Below are positions 10,905 through 17,813 of a stretch of 64,000 nt of DNA, piece after piece. Position 1 is the first letter of the stretch; each line of letters starts with the position of its first letter. This DNA comes from Opitutales bacterium. GTDB lineage: Bacteria > Verrucomicrobiota > Verrucomicrobiia > Opitutales > Oceanipulchritudinaceae. The notes below the pieces were generated by a model. The model saw only the letters and a program-made list of their open reading frames with translations. It searched no databases and had not been told where the DNA came from. The DNA lies in contig JAFIGE010000004.1 of assembly GCA_020831585.1 (NCBI GenBank), positions 1 through 64,000 on the forward strand, written 5' to 3'. Both the position numbers and the translations under genes were made by a program.

Positions 10905-11555
10905 TCACACAACGGGGGCGTCGACGAGGCCGAAGCCGATGGCGGCTCGAGTGAGGCCGGCGACGTTGTGGACGCTGAGCTTTTGCATGATGTGGCTGCG
11001 GTGGACGTCGGCCGTGCGCGTGCTGATTTCGAGCTTCGCGGCGATTTCCTTGGTGGTGTGGCCCTCAGCGATAAGTTGGAGAATCTCGCGTTCGCGGGAG
11101 GTGAGGCTTTCCAGGCTGCCTTCATGCTCGCCTGCCATGAGAAGCTCAGGCATGCGCTTGATAACGTCGGCACTGTAATAGCAATTGCCCGCAGCGACAG
11201 CCTGAAGGGCCTTGCGCATCTCGTCGAGGCCGGCAGACTTTTCGAGGATACCGTCCGCCTTGGTGAGGAGCACACGCTTGATCGAGCCCAGATTGAGGAT
11301 GCCGCTGAGGACGAGTGTTTTGATCTCCGGGCGCCCCTGCTTGAGGCGCTGCACGACTTCGATGCCGTTAAGACCCGGCAACTTCACATCGGTGATGAGG
11401 ATGTCCGGCTGTTCCGCGAGACAACGTTCCAGACCTTCCGCTCCGTCCCCGCTGGTTCCGAGAATCTCGAGGTCGCGCTCAGCATCGATGAGATCACAGA
11501 GGAGATCGCAAAGAAGCGTGTCGTCTTCAATTATAAATACCTTTTGGGCCGCCAT
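10905..11555 (-). CDS. NarL/FixJ-type response regulator (receiver + LuxR HTH)
   Basis: The 216-residue protein has a receiver domain with the acidic pair EDD near residue 10, the phospho-acceptor Asp at about 56 (ILITDVKLPG), Ser at about 84 (VLSG) and a conserved Lys at about 104 (ILEKSA). A LuxR-type helix-turn-helix follows (LTSREREILQLIAEGHTTKEIAAKLEISTRT). Its C-terminal end resembles that of the regulator at 17109-17813, suggesting paralogues. It is a DNA-binding transcription factor. It has its own upstream gap, which contains one member (11607-11625) of the inverted-repeat family seen before the peptide and YcaO genes, so all may belong to one regulon. Confidence 0.92.
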   Translation of the reverse strand: MAAQKVFIIEDDTLLCDLLCDLIDAERDLEILGTSGDGAEGLERCLAEQPDILITDVKLPGLNGIEVVQRLKQGRPEIKTLVLSGILNLGSIKRVLLTKADGILEKSAGLDEMRKALQAVAAGNCYYSADVIKRMPELLMAGEHEGSLESLTSREREILQLIAEGHTTKEIAAKLEISTRTADVHRSHIMQKLSVHNVAGLTRAAIGFGLVDAPVV

Positions 11556-11787: not shown

Positions 11788-12216
11788 TCAGAAGTTTGAA
11801 TGGGTATCAGCGGAGTCAAACTGATTCGTGAAGAATGCCCGAAACTCTCTTGTAATGGGTTTGTGAAAGACCTTACGAAACCCGGCAGCCAGGGCGATAT
11901 CGCGGACTGCGGGCTCAGGGTTGCTCGTGAGAAGAAAGCAGGCAACAGGGTCGAAAGTCGGCTCGGAGCGGAGGCGCTTGAGGGCTTCCGCACCCGTTTG
12001 ACCGTATCCCAGGTAAAAGTCGGAGATGAGGTAATCAATCACTTCTTCGCGAACAAGGGCCACCGCTTGTTGCAGGGTCTCGCAGGCAAAGACTTCATAA
12101 TGGTTTCGCAAAGAGAAGTAGGCCACGCGCAGGGAGGTTGGATCGTCATCCAAAATCAACACACTCGGTCGGCGAAGCTTGGGCGAAGCGGCCGCATCAT
12201 CTGGGGAAGCATTCAT
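11788..12216 (-). CDS. Receiver-only response regulator
   Basis: A 142-residue single receiver domain with a short disordered N-terminus. It has DDD near residue 24 (LILDDDPTS), the phospho-acceptor Asp at about 65 (YLISDFYLG), Thr at about 98 (FLLTSNPE) and Lys at about 118 (FHKPI), so all catalytic positions are intact. There is no output domain, so it probably relays phosphate or acts by protein-protein contact, perhaps with the HPt domain of the hybrid kinase at 13466-17104. It starts 21 bases after the YcaO-like gene and is most likely co-transcribed with it. Confidence 0.9.
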   Translation of the reverse strand: MNASPDDAAASPKLRRPSVLILDDDPTSLRVAYFSLRNHYEVFACETLQQAVALVREEVIDYLISDFYLGYGQTGAEALKRLRSEPTFDPVACFLLTSNPEPAVRDIALAAGFRKVFHKPITREFRAFFTNQFDSADTHSNF

Positions 12217-12237: not shown

Positions 12238-13194
12238 TTACGCGGCGAATTTGCCCAAAGCATTTCCGCAAACAGGTTCGAATGCGTAACGCCAGACGTG
12301 AGCGAACTGTTGCCAAGGTCCGTTGACCGGACCGTCATAGAGGAGGCGCGGAGCCGAAGCGGCTCGCCATGGGGGCATATTCAGTCGATCCCGGACGGCG
12401 AGAAATCCACGGTGAGAAGCCCTCCGCAAGAGGGCGGCTTCCGAGCCGGTGGCCTTTTCGGGGTGATCGGCATTTTCCAGAGCCGTCTCCATCCGGAGAG
12501 CTTCCAGCTTGGCGGAGAGCACGGCGGCTGTGCGCGTGCGGGCAGAGCCGGTTCCGTAGGCAGCTGCGAACACCCCTGAGTGGAGGCGGCGGATGGCCAA
12601 AACGACAAAGCCCCGATAGTCTGGCACGCGGATAAAAACGAGGGTGAATCCGTCCTCTTCCACGGCCCAGTGTTCGAAGGCACCGCTCCACCAAGAGTCG
12701 ACGGCATAGTGTTCATAAGCCTCGGCCATGGCGCGGCTTCGGGCGGATGAGGCAAAGAGACCGGGAAATGCGGCCATACCCTTCGTGCTGTCTGCAACCG
12801 GGTATCCATACCTGCCCGCGTCGGGACCGGAACGGGTCTCATAATAGGCCCATCGCTCAAGGGCTTCGGAGACGGCTTTGGCGCGGGCTTCAAACATCGT
12901 CTTACCCACCCCACTCCCGTCCGCCGCACTGAAGACGGCGGATACGGGAGAGAGGGGAGGCTTGAGGTCTGCTTTGAGCGAGACGCGACAGAGCTGCCAT
13001 GTTGCCCCGAGGTAGAGCGCCCGGCCGTGCTCTATCCGGGCTATCGGGCCATTCGCCGATCCCGCCCCGGCATAACGGAGGGGGGAGAGGTCAAGCTGCC
13101 AACGCTCAAACGCGGAACTCCTCTTCACCAACCAATCCGGACAGTCGGGCGGGTTGAGCGATGTGTGAACAGGGTCTGAGACGAGCGTTGACAT
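12238..13194 (-). CDS. YcaO-like protein (candidate ATP-dependent peptide-backbone cyclodehydratase family)
   Basis: The 318-residue protein shows the patterns I associate with YcaO domains. SGVGKTMFEARAKAVSEALERW (94-115) resembles the first ATP/Mg motif, with Glu110 and Glu113-Arg114. DSTKGMAAFPG (135-145) and then AMAEAYEHYAVDSWWSG (155-171) resemble the second acidic helix, normally LLEVIERDAxxxWW. A later segment GTGSARTRTAAVLSAKLEALR (214-234) resembles the third Glu-bearing helix. YcaO enzymes use ATP to activate backbone amides of ribosomal peptides (azoline, thioamide or amidine formation). No partner E1-like or TfuA gene is adjacent. A small secreted-peptide gene lies 63 bases upstream on the same strand and a receiver gene 21 bases downstream. 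The protein is shorter than many YcaO proteins, and family membership is by motif only. Confidence 0.6.
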   Translation of the reverse strand: MSTLVSDPVHTSLNPPDCPDWLVKRSSAFERWQLDLSPLRYAGAGSANGPIARIEHGRALYLGATWQLCRVSLKADLKPPLSPVSAVFSAADGSGVGKTMFEARAKAVSEALERWAYYETRSGPDAGRYGYPVADSTKGMAAFPGLFASSARSRAMAEAYEHYAVDSWWSGAFEHWAVEEDGFTLVFIRVPDYRGFVVLAIRRLHSGVFAAAYGTGSARTRTAAVLSAKLEALRMETALENADHPEKATGSEAALLRRASHRGFLAVRDRLNMPPWRAASAPRLLYDGPVNGPWQQFAHVWRYAFEPVCGNALGKFAA

Positions 13195-13218
13195 GGATGG
13201 CTAAACGCAGCAGCTTTT

Positions 13219-13242
13219 CTAGGGTTAAATTGCTAATTCAAG
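13219..13242. promoter_or_regulatory. Inverted-repeat site S2 upstream of the YcaO-like gene
   Basis: The left arm CTAGGGTTAAATT and the right arm TAATTCAAG lie between the peptide stop and the YcaO start, ending about 25 bases before the ATG. Compared with S1 it has a two-base insertion at the centre and a GG-to-AA change in one arm; otherwise the two sites align base for base. Candidate operator giving the YcaO gene an additional promoter or control point. Confidence 0.45.
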
Positions 13243-13257
13243 GGGTTGGCGGGGCAT

Positions 13258-13437
13258 TTAGCGCCGATCGCCGCCATTACCCCCCGCGCAATAGATGGAA
13301 AGAATGATGACGTCGTCGCTGGCATCCTGCATATCGGGGAGCACCTTCTGGGTGAGGGCGTCCGCGTGGGCGGAAAAACCAACGGTGGCAAGGGCGGAGG
13401 CTGCGAAGAGGATTGCTGTCTTTTTGAGTGTTTTCAT
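13258..13437 (-). CDS. Small secreted peptide, candidate substrate of the YcaO-like enzyme
   Basis: The 59-codon gene has a textbook Sec signal: basic MKTLKK, hydrophobic TAILFAASALATVGF, then SAHA before DA (predicted cut after residue 25). The 34-residue remainder begins DALTQKVLPDMQDAS, continues DDVIILSIYC and ends in a Gly-rich, basic tail, AGGNGGDRR. It has one cysteine (residue 50) and no lipobox. The frame runs ATG at 13437 to TAA at 13258-13260. The gene is first in a likely operon with the YcaO-like protein and a receiver. YcaO enzymes act on Cys/Ser/Thr or neighbouring amides of short ribosomal peptides, so this is a plausible precursor, but a secreted signal or structural peptide unrelated to YcaO is equally possible. 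No homologue is known to me. Confidence 0.6.
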   Translation of the reverse strand: MKTLKKTAILFAASALATVGFSAHADALTQKVLPDMQDASDDVIILSIYCAGGNGGDRR

Positions 13438-13465: not shown

Positions 13466-16400
13466 TTGGCGTCCCGTTTCGTTTTAGCGTGTTTCCTTCT
13501 CTGGCTTGGGTTAAATTTAACCCAAGGCCTGCTGGCGCAGCCGGTGGATGGCCCGGCGCACCTACTGGCGAGGCAACTGCCGAACGCTCCGGCGGAGGAG
13601 TTGGCGGATTTGGCTGTCGCCGACGGGATTCTCTGGGTCGCGGGAAACGCCCTTCATCGCTTCCGTGAAGGTGAATGGGAGACGGTCTATGAAGAGAGCC
13701 GCATCCTGGCGTTGGAGTATGTTCCGGAGCGGGGCGAGCTGTGGTTTGCGGGGACGCAGGCCTTCGGAGTGATTGATCTAGAGACCGGGACTCATTCGAT
13801 ACTGCCCCTGATCAAAGGCTTTATCTGGGACATCGTGGCGTTGGACGGGCGTCTCTGGTATTTTGGGGGAGGCGGCTTTGGATGGATCGATTTGGAAACG
13901 CGTGCGCCCGCTCGCTTCTGGGCGGTGGATTTCTCGCCCCGCCCATTTGTCATGGGTCCATGGAGCCAGCGGGGGGAGATTCTTCTGGGCAGTGACTCCG
14001 GATTGGCAACGGTATGCCCGGAAAACGGATGGGTTCCCGTCCTGAGCCCTGCGGGGGACTTGACCGGTCAGCTGATTACATGGGCTCAACCGATTCCGGA
14101 AGGCGGATATTTTCTCGGTTCATCTTCCGGAGCCTTCCAATGGGACGGCATGCCGGAAGGCACGGTTTCTCTGGTGCAGACAAAATCGGATCAATTTACC
14201 CGGGGCATCAACAACGCACATACATGGGGCCGCATTTCCGCCATCGTGGATTTTCCTATCGGCATCGCCCTGTGGGACGGGGATCAGGCAGCCTTCACTG
14301 GCGTATCCAATGACAAAAACGGTTTGCTAATCGGGGATATCTATAAGGTTGGGGGGCACGGACCCGATGTCTACTTGTTGGGCAGCCACGGCATCGCCCG
14401 GGTGGACCTGAAGGACGCGGCACGTTTTTTCCCGGGGGATGAAGTCTTACGGGGTGCCTCTCTCCGCTATGGATTTTTTCATGAAGGAACGGCCCATGTC
14501 TTTCCCGTTGACTCGGCGGCCCCCAATGATCGGCTCCTCCGGCTCAGCACGGACCATTGGACAGTCGAGCGGCTGCCAGCGCAGCCCTTCAGCGCAGGGG
14601 TGGATACAGGAGGGCACCTCAGTTACACGACCTTGCACCACCGCAAACGCTTTATCAACGGGGCTTGGGAACAGCAAAACCTCGGCACGGCGGTGCGCTC
14701 CGTCCTTTGGACCCCGCGTGGCGGATTTGCCACCGACCCGGATCATCTTCACGCATTAAGCTCCGACGGCGCGCTGCGCATCCTCACCGAAGCCGGACCC
14801 TCCGACCGCTTAATCAGTTGGATTGATGACAGCCTTTTGGCGGTGGACCACGAACACCGGCCGGTCATTTTCCGCTCACGCGGGGCCGCTTGGTCGCGGG
14901 AACGCCTTGCCGGCTCATTGGGAAATCGCGCTGTCTCCAGTGCAGCGGTTTCCGGCGGAGCCTATGTTGCGACCGAAGGCGGCGACCTCTTTTTCGTCGA
15001 CCATCGGGGTGCGCGGGCGATCCAGCTTGCTCCTCAATGGATCGCGCGCGCCGTCGCCGCAAAAGATAGCGAAGTCTGCGTTATTCTGCACCACACCGAA
15101 TCCGGAAAAAATGCTTTGGCATCGTGGAACGCGGCGGGTGAATCGAGCATGTGGCGCGTCCGTCAGCTGAATCTCATCGGAAAGCCGGGGATGGTCTTCA
15201 CCGATGAGCGCCAGATCGGCTTGGCGGGGGACGGCGGCATTTTGATTCTACCCTTGGCTGAGCTGGAAAGAGTCTCCCCCCCAGCGCCTAACTTTGCCTT
15301 GATCCACGGGACGGCTGCCGTGTCGGGCGCACGGCTTCCTTACGGTACCCAACGCCTCAGCCTCACCGTGACCAACGCCGCAGATCTGCTCCCCGCCTAC
15401 ATTCAATTCCGGGTGAACGGGGGAGAGTGGCAGGCCCTCCACGGAGAAAACGCCACCATCCAAGTCGGGGGTCATGGATCATTCCGGATCGAAACGCGTA
15501 TGCTTCTGCCCAATGGCGTGGCCATCGAATCGCCGCAGTCCATCCATTTCCGGATTTCACCGCCGTGGTATCAACAACCGCTCGTGCAACTGGCGACCCT
15601 CCTTTTCTTCGCCCTGGCCATCACCGGCGGCGTGCGCTGGCGCATTGCCAGCCTGAACCGTATGAACACGTGGCTGCGGGAAACCGTCGATTCGAAAACG
15701 CGTGAACTCGAAGCCGCCACAGCGGCGCGCACCAACTTCCTTGCCGGCATCTCGCACGATGTGCGCAACCCCCTCAACGGTGTCCTCCTCCTCGCCGATT
15801 CCCTTGCCATGGATCCACCGAGAGACCCCCTTGACAATCGCCTCCGTGAGCTGAAGGACCTCGGAATGGTCGTGGACCGCATGCTCGGCGAAGTGCTCGA
15901 TTTCTCATCCATCGACCACAAGTCCATTCCCTTGAACCCCTCGCCAGTGACCCTCGGCGAAATCATCGACGCCGCCGTGAGCCAAAACCAATGGATTCTC
16001 AGCCGCTCCCTCATCAACCTGACAACCCGCCTCACTTCCCACGAACGCCGCTTCGCGATTCAAGCGGATTTCAGTTGGCTCGTGCAAATTCTCTCCAACC
16101 TGCTCATTAACGCCGTCCATTACTCGCAGACCGAGCGCGTGGAGATCGGTGCGCGCATCCTCTCTGAAGGAGAAGCCACTGCTGTAGTGGAGTTTTCAGT
16201 ACGGGACTGGGGTGTGGGCATTGATCCCTCGGAGAGCGAACTCATCTTTGACCGCTTCGTCCGGGGCGAACGCGGTATTGAAAGCGGCCACCACGGCACG
16301 GGTCTCGGCCTCGCCATTTCGCGTGAAGTGATGCGGGCCATGGGCGGCGAACTGCGTTTGGAGAAAAACGATCCCCATGGGGCCGCTTTCTTCATCACCC

Positions 16401-17104
16401 ACCGCTTCGACCGCGCCTCCGCGAAAACCCTCCCGGACTATGCCCGCATTCTCGCCGATCTCCGCGGCAAACGCGTGCTCGTCGTTGAAGATCTCGACTA
16501 CAATCGCGACGCCATGGAGCGCTTTTTCCGGGATCGTGGCTGTATCGTGCATTGCGAGGAAGCCGGACCCGCGGGCCTGCAAGCACTTGTTGAAGGCACG
16601 TTCGATCTTGCCCTTCTGGACTGGGACCTACCCGGAATCACCGGCCCTCAAATCGCCCGCAGCTTCCGCCGCCAGTGCCCGCAAAAAGAAACCATCCTGC
16701 TGGCCCTCACCGCCTACACGGACGGCGCCAAACAGCGCGAAGCCCAGCGATCCGGCATGAACGGCTACCTCGCGAAACCCCTCACTGCTCAACGCCTCGC
16801 CCGCACCCTCGCTATCATCCAAGGCAACCCCGTTGCCCGGGAAATGGAAGAGGGCAGCGCCATCGACAACGACCGCCTGGCCGGGGCCGTTCAAGAACAG
16901 TTGCGCATCTGCCAGACCCTCGGGGATCAGCTCGACTTCGAAGGCCTCCGGCGCGCCGCTCACCGCCTCACCACCCTCGCCCTCATCCTCGGCGATGAAG
17001 CCATGCAACGATCCTGCCGCGAACTTCAGGTAAGTGCGTCGGAAAACGACAGCGAAAGAGTGCGCCTCGGCTTGCGCGAGCTGCGGAAGTGGGTCCATTC
17101 CTAA
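13466..17104 (+). CDS. Hybrid sensor histidine kinase: periplasmic beta-propeller, Y_Y_Y, HisKA, HATPase, receiver, HPt
   Basis: Taking TTG at 13466 as start gives 1212 residues with an immediate signal peptide (ASRFVLACFLLWLGL, ending near LLAQ). A long beta-propeller-like sensor (about 30-590, repeated LWVAG/LWFAG/LWYFG blades) is followed by a Y_Y_Y-like domain ending in PPWYQQ and one membrane helix (about 700-725). The catalytic part has HisKA with His at about 764 (ISHDVRNPLNG), HATPase with DWGVGID and GTGLGLAI, a receiver with Asp at about 1052 (LLDWDLPG) and an HPt domain with His at about 1166 (AAHRLTT). A complete phosphorelay is thus in one chain. An in-frame ATG at 13295 exists but lies inside the antisense peptide gene and would bury the signal peptide, so I rejected it; the true start is uncertain. 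Confidence 0.9.
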   Translation: MASRFVLACFLLWLGLNLTQGLLAQPVDGPAHLLARQLPNAPAEELADLAVADGILWVAGNALHRFREGEWETVYEESRILALEYVPERGELWFAGTQAFGVIDLETGTHSILPLIKGFIWDIVALDGRLWYFGGGGFGWIDLETRAPARFWAVDFSPRPFVMGPWSQRGEILLGSDSGLATVCPENGWVPVLSPAGDLTGQLITWAQPIPEGGYFLGSSSGAFQWDGMPEGTVSLVQTKSDQFTRGINNAHTWGRISAIVDFPIGIALWDGDQAAFTGVSNDKNGLLIGDIYKVGGHGPDVYLLGSHGIARVDLKDAARFFPGDEVLRGASLRYGFFHEGTAHVFPVDSAAPNDRLLRLSTDHWTVERLPAQPFSAGVDTGGHLSYTTLHHRKRFINGAWEQQNLGTAVRSVLWTPRGGFATDPDHLHALSSDGALRILTEAGPSDRLISWIDDSLLAVDHEHRPVIFRSRGAAWSRERLAGSLGNRAVSSAAVSGGAYVATEGGDLFFVDHRGARAIQLAPQWIARAVAAKDSEVCVILHHTESGKNALASWNAAGESSMWRVRQLNLIGKPGMVFTDERQIGLAGDGGILILPLAELERVSPPAPNFALIHGTAAVSGARLPYGTQRLSLTVTNAADLLPAYIQFRVNGGEWQALHGENATIQVGGHGSFRIETRMLLPNGVAIESPQSIHFRISPPWYQQPLVQLATLLFFALAITGGVRWRIASLNRMNTWLRETVDSKTRELEAATAARTNFLAGISHDVRNPLNGVLLLADSLAMDPPRDPLDNRLRELKDLGMVVDRMLGEVLDFSSIDHKSIPLNPSPVTLGEIIDAAVSQNQWILSRSLINLTTRLTSHERRFAIQADFSWLVQILSNLLINAVHYSQTERVEIGARILSEGEATAVVEFSVRDWGVGIDPSESELIFDRFVRGERGIESGHHGTGLGLAISREVMRAMGGELRLEKNDPHGAAFFITHRFDRASAKTLPDYARILADLRGKRVLVVEDLDYNRDAMERFFRDRGCIVHCEEAGPAGLQALVEGTFDLALLDWDLPGITGPQIARSFRRQCPQKETILLALTAYTDGAKQREAQRSGMNGYLAKPLTAQRLARTLAIIQGNPVAREMEEGSAIDNDRLAGAVQEQLRICQTLGDQLDFEGLRRAAHRLTTLALILGDEAMQRSCRELQVSASENDSERVRLGLRELRKWVHS
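13505..13526. promoter_or_regulatory. Perfect 22-bp palindrome S1 upstream of the secreted-peptide gene
   Basis: CTTGGGTTAAA is followed directly by its exact complement TTTAACCCAAG. It lies 68 bases upstream of the peptide ATG and inside the beginning of the divergent kinase coding region (over the signal-peptide codons). Degenerate copies occur before the YcaO-like gene (S2) and the left NarL regulator (S3). The position fits an operator for the peptide promoter; a dimeric LuxR-type regulator encoded in the cluster is an obvious candidate binder, by inference. Confidence 0.6.
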
Positions 17105-17108
17105 CAAC

Positions 17109-17813
17109 GTGGGCGAGCCGCTAAAAACGATCATTGTTGAAGACCAGCGCCTTGGGATTGACCTCTTGCGCTCCTGCCTGGACGACCGCTTCGCCGTCTG
17201 TGCGGCTGTTCAGTCCATTGCCGCCGCTTGGGCTGCTTTCGAAGAGCACGATCCCGATTTTGCCATACTTGATATCGAATTGCCCGACGGCAGCGGCCTC
17301 GACCTCGCCCAACGTATGCTCGACGGCAAGCGCCATATCAAGCTCCTCGGCGTTTCCGCAAAAACAGACCCCTACACCCTCTATCGCATCTTCATGATGG
17401 GCTTTTCCGGGTTTGTGGATAAGAATTGCGGAAGTGTCGACGAGCTGCACACCGCCATCGACCAAGTTGCTCAAGGAAACTTTCACTACGCTTCCATCGT
17501 GCAAGACGTCATGCGCGAGCAATATGCGAATCCCGAAGCTTTTTCGAAAATCCTCACGGAACGCGAACAGGAACTCATGGTCCACCTCGGTGTGGGCTCC
17601 TCCAACGAAGCCATCGCCGCGCGCCTTGGCTTGCGCCCCGTGAGCGTGCAAGGCCACCGCCACCGCATCATGCGTAAACTCGGCCTATCCACCACGATCG
17701 ACCTCATTCGCTACGCCATGCGCACCGGGTTTGTGAACGCCTTTGACCTGAAAGCGGATTTCACGGAAAACGAAAACGGCGGGGCCCACCGAAGGAAAGC
17801 CCCTCCCCAATAA
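17109..17813 (+). CDS. NarL/FixJ-type response regulator downstream of hybrid kinase
   Basis: A GTG start four bases after the kinase stop gives 234 residues beginning VGEPLKTIIVEDQ. The receiver has ED at about 10-11, phospho-acceptor Asp at about 53 (FAILDIELPDGSG), Ser at about 80 (GVSAK) and Lys at about 102 (FVDKNCG). A LuxR-type helix-turn-helix follows (LTEREQELMVHLGVGSSNEAIAARLGLRPVSVQGHRHRI). The C-terminal tail is polar. Tight spacing shows co-transcription with the kinase, so this is its most likely final phosphate acceptor and a candidate binder of the S1-S3 palindromes. Confidence 0.93.
   Translation: MGEPLKTIIVEDQRLGIDLLRSCLDDRFAVCAAVQSIAAAWAAFEEHDPDFAILDIELPDGSGLDLAQRMLDGKRHIKLLGVSAKTDPYTLYRIFMMGFSGFVDKNCGSVDELHTAIDQVAQGNFHYASIVQDVMREQYANPEAFSKILTEREQELMVHLGVGSSNEAIAARLGLRPVSVQGHRHRIMRKLGLSTTIDLIRYAMRTGFVNAFDLKADFTENENGGAHRRKAPPQ

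Follow-up and report, generated by a model that had tools for sequence, protein, structure and literature searches.

A conserved module of four genes, apparently undescribed and confined in the genomes sampled to one order of Verrucomicrobiota, likely constitutes a self-contained autoinducing peptide-pheromone cassette that comprises a precursor peptide, its maturation enzyme, a receptor kinase and a response regulator. No experiment underlies this reading; the gene content of the module and its conservation are shown. The module lies in a 64,000-nucleotide stretch of DNA (the window) on contig C57 of a 5.28-Mb genome, for which the closest named relative found was a MAG labelled Puniceicoccaceae (a family of Opitutia, Verrucomicrobiota). 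Of 373 genomes sampled from the order, 40 gave matches to a profile of its enzyme, with 43 copies in all; in samples of the class (384 genomes) and the phylum (388 genomes), the profile matched members of the order only (Table 1).

Directly 5′ of the enzyme gene and on the same strand, 42 of 43 loci carry an open reading frame (ORF) of 39–104 codons, encoding a peptide with a hydrophobic, mostly Sec-like leader; that of the window translates as MKTLKKTAILFAASALATVGFSAHADALTQKVLPDMQDASDDVIILSIYCAGGNGGDRR. The N-terminal part of these precursors is conserved (...SLLLxxGFxRAAExLDP in many) and includes one invariant glycine, Gly20 in the window's leader, and the C-terminal part is variable. The ORFs were first chosen by eye and afterwards tested by profile: when the tested sequence and its relatives above 60% identity were excluded, the chosen ORF ranked first in 42/42 loci among 11,155 reading frames, and in the window's genome the peptide profile matched a single locus. 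We left L089 (G175) out of the family, its small upstream ORF not being a member. Together with pN/pS values below 1 in all 14 homologous peptide pairs tested (0.18–0.75), the leave-one-out profile shows selection on the peptide and a precursor reading frame beyond chance. On inspection, the Sec-like signal is evident in the window's precursor and in most relatives, and weak in about eight (short leaders without a clear signal-peptidase site occur at L028, L032, L068, L082 and L084–L087). With its conserved leader, its variable core and a modifying enzyme encoded alongside, the short ribosomal precursor fits the definition of a RiPP, the core modification itself being inferred.

One core position, Cys50 in the window, is occupied by Cys in 34 of the 42 precursors, by Thr in 7 and by Ser in 1, against a C+S+T background of 23% of the region, and is preceded by Pro in 27. 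Three of the eight precursors with Thr or Ser at this position lack any Cys in the C-terminal half. Four precursors of the family are distinguished by tandem cores in three to four identical or near-identical copies, namely three copies each of CAQLPCYHRDF in L025 and L030, three of DTCTWPCE in L088 and four of FCDTVCNF in L081.

Table 1. Positions of the cassette's features in the window, and of tandem-core precursors in other loci (numbered within each locus).
Feature	Coordinates	Strand	Evidence
Precursor peptide gene, 59 aa (Sec-like leader + 34 residues)	13258..13437	minus	Translation; homologues in 42 loci; pN/pS < 1
Leader / Sec-like signal peptide, residues 1–25	13363..13437	minus	Alignments; cleavage between AHA and D, by eye
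Cys50 codon, predicted modification site	13288..13290	minus	Column C/T/S in 42/42 precursors
Stand-alone YcaO-family enzyme, 318 aa (very likely)	12238..13194	minus	PF02624, fold, invariant ExxE/ExxER motifs
Receiver-only protein downstream of YcaO	11788..12216	minus	PF00072; position kept in close relatives
Hybrid sensor histidine kinase (propellers + Y_Y_Y sensor, TM, HisKA, HATPase, REC, weak Hpt)	13466..17104	plus	Pfam, sensor model, Foldseek
NarL/LuxR-type response regulator, probable kinase output	17034..17813	plus	Pfam Response_reg + GerE
Perfect 22-bp palindrome CTTGGGTTAAATTTAACCCAAG, candidate operator	13505..13526		68–89 nt upstream of peptide ATG
Tandem-core precursors	L025:6855-7169, L030:8093-8407, L081:7576-7869, L088:5889-6119		

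The enzyme is very likely a divergent stand-alone YcaO, as judged from the Pfam matches of its relatives and its predicted fold. The window protein matches PF02624 only weakly (E = 0.014, below the Pfam gathering cut-off), and 16 of 17 aligned relatives match at E < 0.01 (best 3.9e-08). Foldseek searches with its AlphaFold2 model (mean pLDDT 84.7) returned Methanopyrus kandleri YcaO (6ci7/6cib, E 1.4e-05) as the top PDB matches and then the microcin B17 cyclodehydratase subunit McbD (6gos_D, E 9.4e-04), each at a TM of about 0.5, whereas PDB sequence searches with the single protein or profile A1 gave no YcaO match; no NCBIfam model places enzyme or peptide. Residues E110, E113, R114, E158, E161, W168, W169 and E231 are invariant across 17 homologues, and the E158/E161 region aligns at low probability (27%) with the AR..E..ER segment of Escherichia coli YcaO. 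In the window's clade, ExxEH or ExxEY takes the place of the second ExxER motif, His162 of the window enzyme standing where other members have Arg, a caveat in that the change may conceivably tune activity. Clade-B enzymes start at a conserved ‘LxLAPxRYA’ without an extra N-terminal domain and therefore show no apparent fused recognition element; neither an RRE nor a partner protein is apparent for the enzyme. That the peptide is its substrate is very likely, an inference made without mass-spectrometry data.

A preliminary description, made from sequence alone, had proposed a peptide with a full Sec signal and a 34-residue mature part, encoded 63 bases upstream of a gene with YcaO-like motif residues, the two forming a RiPP-like pair without a TfuA, E1-like or dehydrogenase partner. 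The peptide and the 63-base gap held, with the leader judged Sec-like by eye; so did the motif, every listed residue being among the invariant ones, and the lack of those partners, none being conserved across the loci read. The pairing is supported, its modification remaining unproven by experiment. Three outcomes had been named as refuting: no YcaO fold by HMM or structure, enzyme homologues never beside a similar peptide gene, and a peptide frame not conserved in relatives. None was met, since PF02624 on the relatives and the predicted fold confirm the family (the window protein itself reaching just the weak match above), the neighbourhood recurs in all but one of the loci and pN/pS indicates a conserved frame.

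A homologue of the window's hybrid kinase stands head-to-head with the peptide gene in 42/42 loci with enough upstream sequence. The window kinase is inferred to start at a TTG (13466), its frame being open from 13295. Most of the homologue sensors tested have a Pfam call for Reg_prop and/or Y_Y_Y; the window protein itself has neither, and its sensor model (pLDDT 90.5) matches the Bacteroides HTCS sensors BT4673, BT3049 and BT4663 in Foldseek. By Pfam on homologues and by fold match, the kinase thus meets the criterion for a hybrid two-component system (HTCS), a Reg_prop and Y_Y_Y sensor fused to HisKA/HATPase/REC, and the sensor has the architecture of a periplasmic ligand-binding type with two propellers and Y_Y_Y. 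Of the 42 loci, 32 have a LuxR-type regulator adjoining the kinase and 5 have one after YcaO, 37 in all; five have none within the stretch read. At L064, L068 and L069 the kinase frame is split in two, for which frameshift, sequencing error or decay may account.

The sensor part diverges faster than the kinase part, and core similarity correlates with sensor similarity when kinase similarity is controlled (partial r 0.35; −0.13 for core against kinase with sensor controlled), a correlation that persists with the leader controlled and in a reduced set (0.32). We regard this covariation as supportive, not conclusive, because the permutations ignore phylogeny. In addition, three genomes, G227 (L095), G271 (L096) and G063 (L100), retain the kinase orthologue and LuxR regulator, with no peptide found by profile and no YcaO. 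Their kinases are nested among peptide-linked ones in the kinase tree (support 0.999–1.0), and in G063 kinase and regulator point apart across ~0.25–0.3 kb where L032 has peptide and enzyme. These receptor-only genomes match the pattern expected from lost signal production with sensing kept. That the peptide is the ligand of the kinase is likely, again by inference and without response data.

Upstream of the peptide start, within 150 nt, 12 of 43 loci carry an exact TACY-N8-RGTA dyad, where 0.32 would be expected from its density in the same loci, and several further loci have one with a single mismatch. The motif follows the 7-2-7 arrangement of NarL-type sites. The dyads lie at a 22-bp phasing, near −64, −86 and −109; L078 has three and L074 two. 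Identification of the motif was post hoc, and most loci yielded no site; the enrichment upstream of the peptide is shown, and the sign of regulation is inferred. At the place corresponding to the dyads of other loci the window carries the palindrome instead, which overlaps codons of the kinase signal sequence because only ~28 bp separate the starts of the kinase and peptide genes, assuming that the TTG is the kinase start. The palindrome is unique in its genome at up to 3 mismatches and therefore gave no regulon. Exact or near-exact TACCGGAATTCCGGTA sites number 1–7 per genome. As a separate observation, two such NarL-type dyads in G307 lie upstream of predicted secreted proteins (L123 site 2507, L125 site 2538), in paralogous operons encoding secreted matrixin-type metalloproteases with Ig domains, a plausible target set that remains possible and unproven.

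Across the stretches read around the loci, the shared genes are kinase and regulators only, and the window's neighbours are likewise regulators and kinase. No transporter, immunity, protease, TfuA, E1-like/ocin-ThiF or dehydrogenase gene is conserved across these stretches, no AgrB/AgrD-type maturation pair is among the conserved neighbours, and no conserved outer-membrane exit route or leader protease was found in the locus. The receiver-only gene is likely co-transcribed with YcaO; after it lies a second NarL/LuxR-type response regulator (10905–11555, minus strand), whose membership of the cassette is not established. In five loci only (L082, L085, L088, L028 and L032) a cluster C3 gene adjoins the module, identified by eye as TonB-dependent-receptor-like and outer-membrane (~900 aa); an uptake or exit route is one possible role.

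We propose that the 59-residue precursor would be synthesised in the cytoplasm, where the partner-less YcaO would modify it, most likely through ATP-dependent cyclodehydration of the conserved core Cys/Thr/Ser (Cys50 here) to an azoline, and that the modified precursor would be exported via Sec by its leader and then trimmed. Outside the inner membrane the kinase, encoded divergently, would detect the peptide with its propeller/Y_Y_Y sensor; a His-Asp-His phosphorelay through the receiver and Hpt parts would activate the NarL/LuxR regulator, which would bind the dyads upstream of the peptide gene and close a positive loop. The substrate relation, the chemistry, Sec export, the ligand–receptor relation and the sign of regulation are all inferred. 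The lack of a conserved export or leader-protease gene fits Sec export and a housekeeping signal peptidase. The restriction of the target to C/T/S fits an azoline, since azoline-forming YcaO enzymes cyclise precisely these three residues (PMC7136475); we consider the azoline chemistry as likely to be wrong as right. The earlier suggestion that linkage to a two-component system points to a modified signalling peptide is strengthened, because the hybrid kinase is universal, a LuxR regulator usual, NarL-type operators lie upstream and receptor-only genomes exist; sensing is unproven by experiment.

Several observations weigh against the pheromone model. The window enzyme falls below the Pfam cut-off and has His, or in its clade Tyr, for Arg in the second ExxER motif; there is no apparent RRE or partner, some leaders have no clear cleavage site, and an exit route or leader protease is not conserved. 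Sugars could be what the kinase senses, given that the Bacteroides relatives of the sensor are glycan-linked (BT4663 to heparin). Finally, no operator site was found in most loci, the window's palindrome sits in kinase codons and five loci lack a LuxR regulator in the stretch read.

The alternative that survives best keeps the same system and has the YcaO install a thioamide or amidine in place of the azoline, which we lean slightly against. YcaO enzymes make all three, and bottromycin has a partner-less amidine-forming YcaO (PMC7136475; PMC8442711), but the conserved neighbourhood holds no TfuA and the target position is limited to three heterocyclisable residues. A YcaO-modified bacteriocin or antimicrobial, with the kinase merely regulating production, is unlikely. 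YcaO RiPPs of known function are mostly antibiotics or toxins (for example, PMC7136475) and the cores are short and variable; however, no transporter, immunity or protease gene conservedly adjoins the module, the kinase is universal in testable loci with its variable sensor co-varying with the core, and receptor-only genomes retain kinase and regulator. Equally hard to sustain is a peptide that, for example by binding a metal or glycan, assists the kinase in the periplasm as accessory or co-sensor and is not a diffusible signal: bufferins, known Sec-type RiPPs, bind copper (PMC12452194), relatives of the kinase sense glycans (BT4663) and export past the periplasm is not evident, yet Thr/Ser at the target, in three cases without any C-terminal-half Cys, argues against metal binding, and tandem cores resemble a released multi-copy signal. 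Since eight precursors have Thr or Ser at the target, we rejected a metal chelator as the main reading.

A bolder form of the preferred pheromone reading, towards which we incline by a narrow margin, is an undescribed quorum-sensing class in Opitutia, with a Sec-exported, YcaO-modified (azoline) pheromone and a propeller-sensor hybrid kinase, species-polymorphic, autoregulated through NarL dyads and accompanied by receptor-only genomes. Gram-negative peptide signalling is little known and Sec-exported RiPPs are rare. Minimal at four genes and present in about a tenth of the sampled genomes of the order, the module makes testable the action of a partner-less YcaO on a C/T/S target, the recognition of a peptide by a propeller-type hybrid kinase and what Opitutia coordinate by signalling. 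In the literature searched, which did not cover subscription-only papers, we found no description of a YcaO system with a histidine kinase, in quorum sensing or in Verrucomicrobiota/Opitutia, of a YcaO product as signal of its own two-component system, or of peptide signalling in Verrucomicrobiota.

Among known systems, stand-alone YcaO RiPPs (bottromycin and amidine RiPPs) likewise have a YcaO without E1-like/ThiF or TfuA partner, a short precursor and a heterocyclisable Cys, and bottromycin is a known case of a YcaO that acts without a partner (PMC7136475; PMC4603692). The cassette differs in its N-terminal Sec-like leader, its minimal cluster, a sensor kinase in place of tailoring enzymes and its phylum, whereas bottromycin clusters hold two YcaOs, methyltransferases and more. 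The bottromycin-type layout of N-terminal core and C-terminal follower is not met by a precursor whose conserved leader is N-terminal and whose core is C-terminal; nor is the TOMM/linear azol(in)e type, without a conserved E1-like/ocin-ThiF partner or dehydrogenase, or the thioamitide type (YcaO-TfuA), without a conserved TfuA neighbour. Bufferins and oxazolins share the Sec signal in place of the usual leader and the core Cys, but are made by MNIO (DUF692) enzymes working with partner proteins and bind copper, unlike a cassette of YcaO and two-component system; Sec signals in RiPP precursors have been called highly unusual for bacteria and are experimentally shown only for bufferins (PMC12452194).

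The agr, fsr and Com systems similarly unite precursor, maturation enzyme, receptor kinase and regulator in one cassette, with operators upstream of the signal gene, a variable signal matched to a variable sensor and receptor-only strains; the cassette differs from them in having no AgrB/AgrD-type gene or PCAT transporter in its conserved module, and in its Gram-negative host, YcaO maturation and periplasmic-propeller hybrid kinase. Bacteroides BT4663, BT4673 and BT3049 have the same Reg_prop propellers and Y_Y_Y sensor fused to HisKA/HATPase/REC. Their AraC-type output is fused, and they are linked to glycan use, whereas the kinase described here is linked to a peptide gene and combines a weak Hpt with a NarL/LuxR regulator encoded separately.
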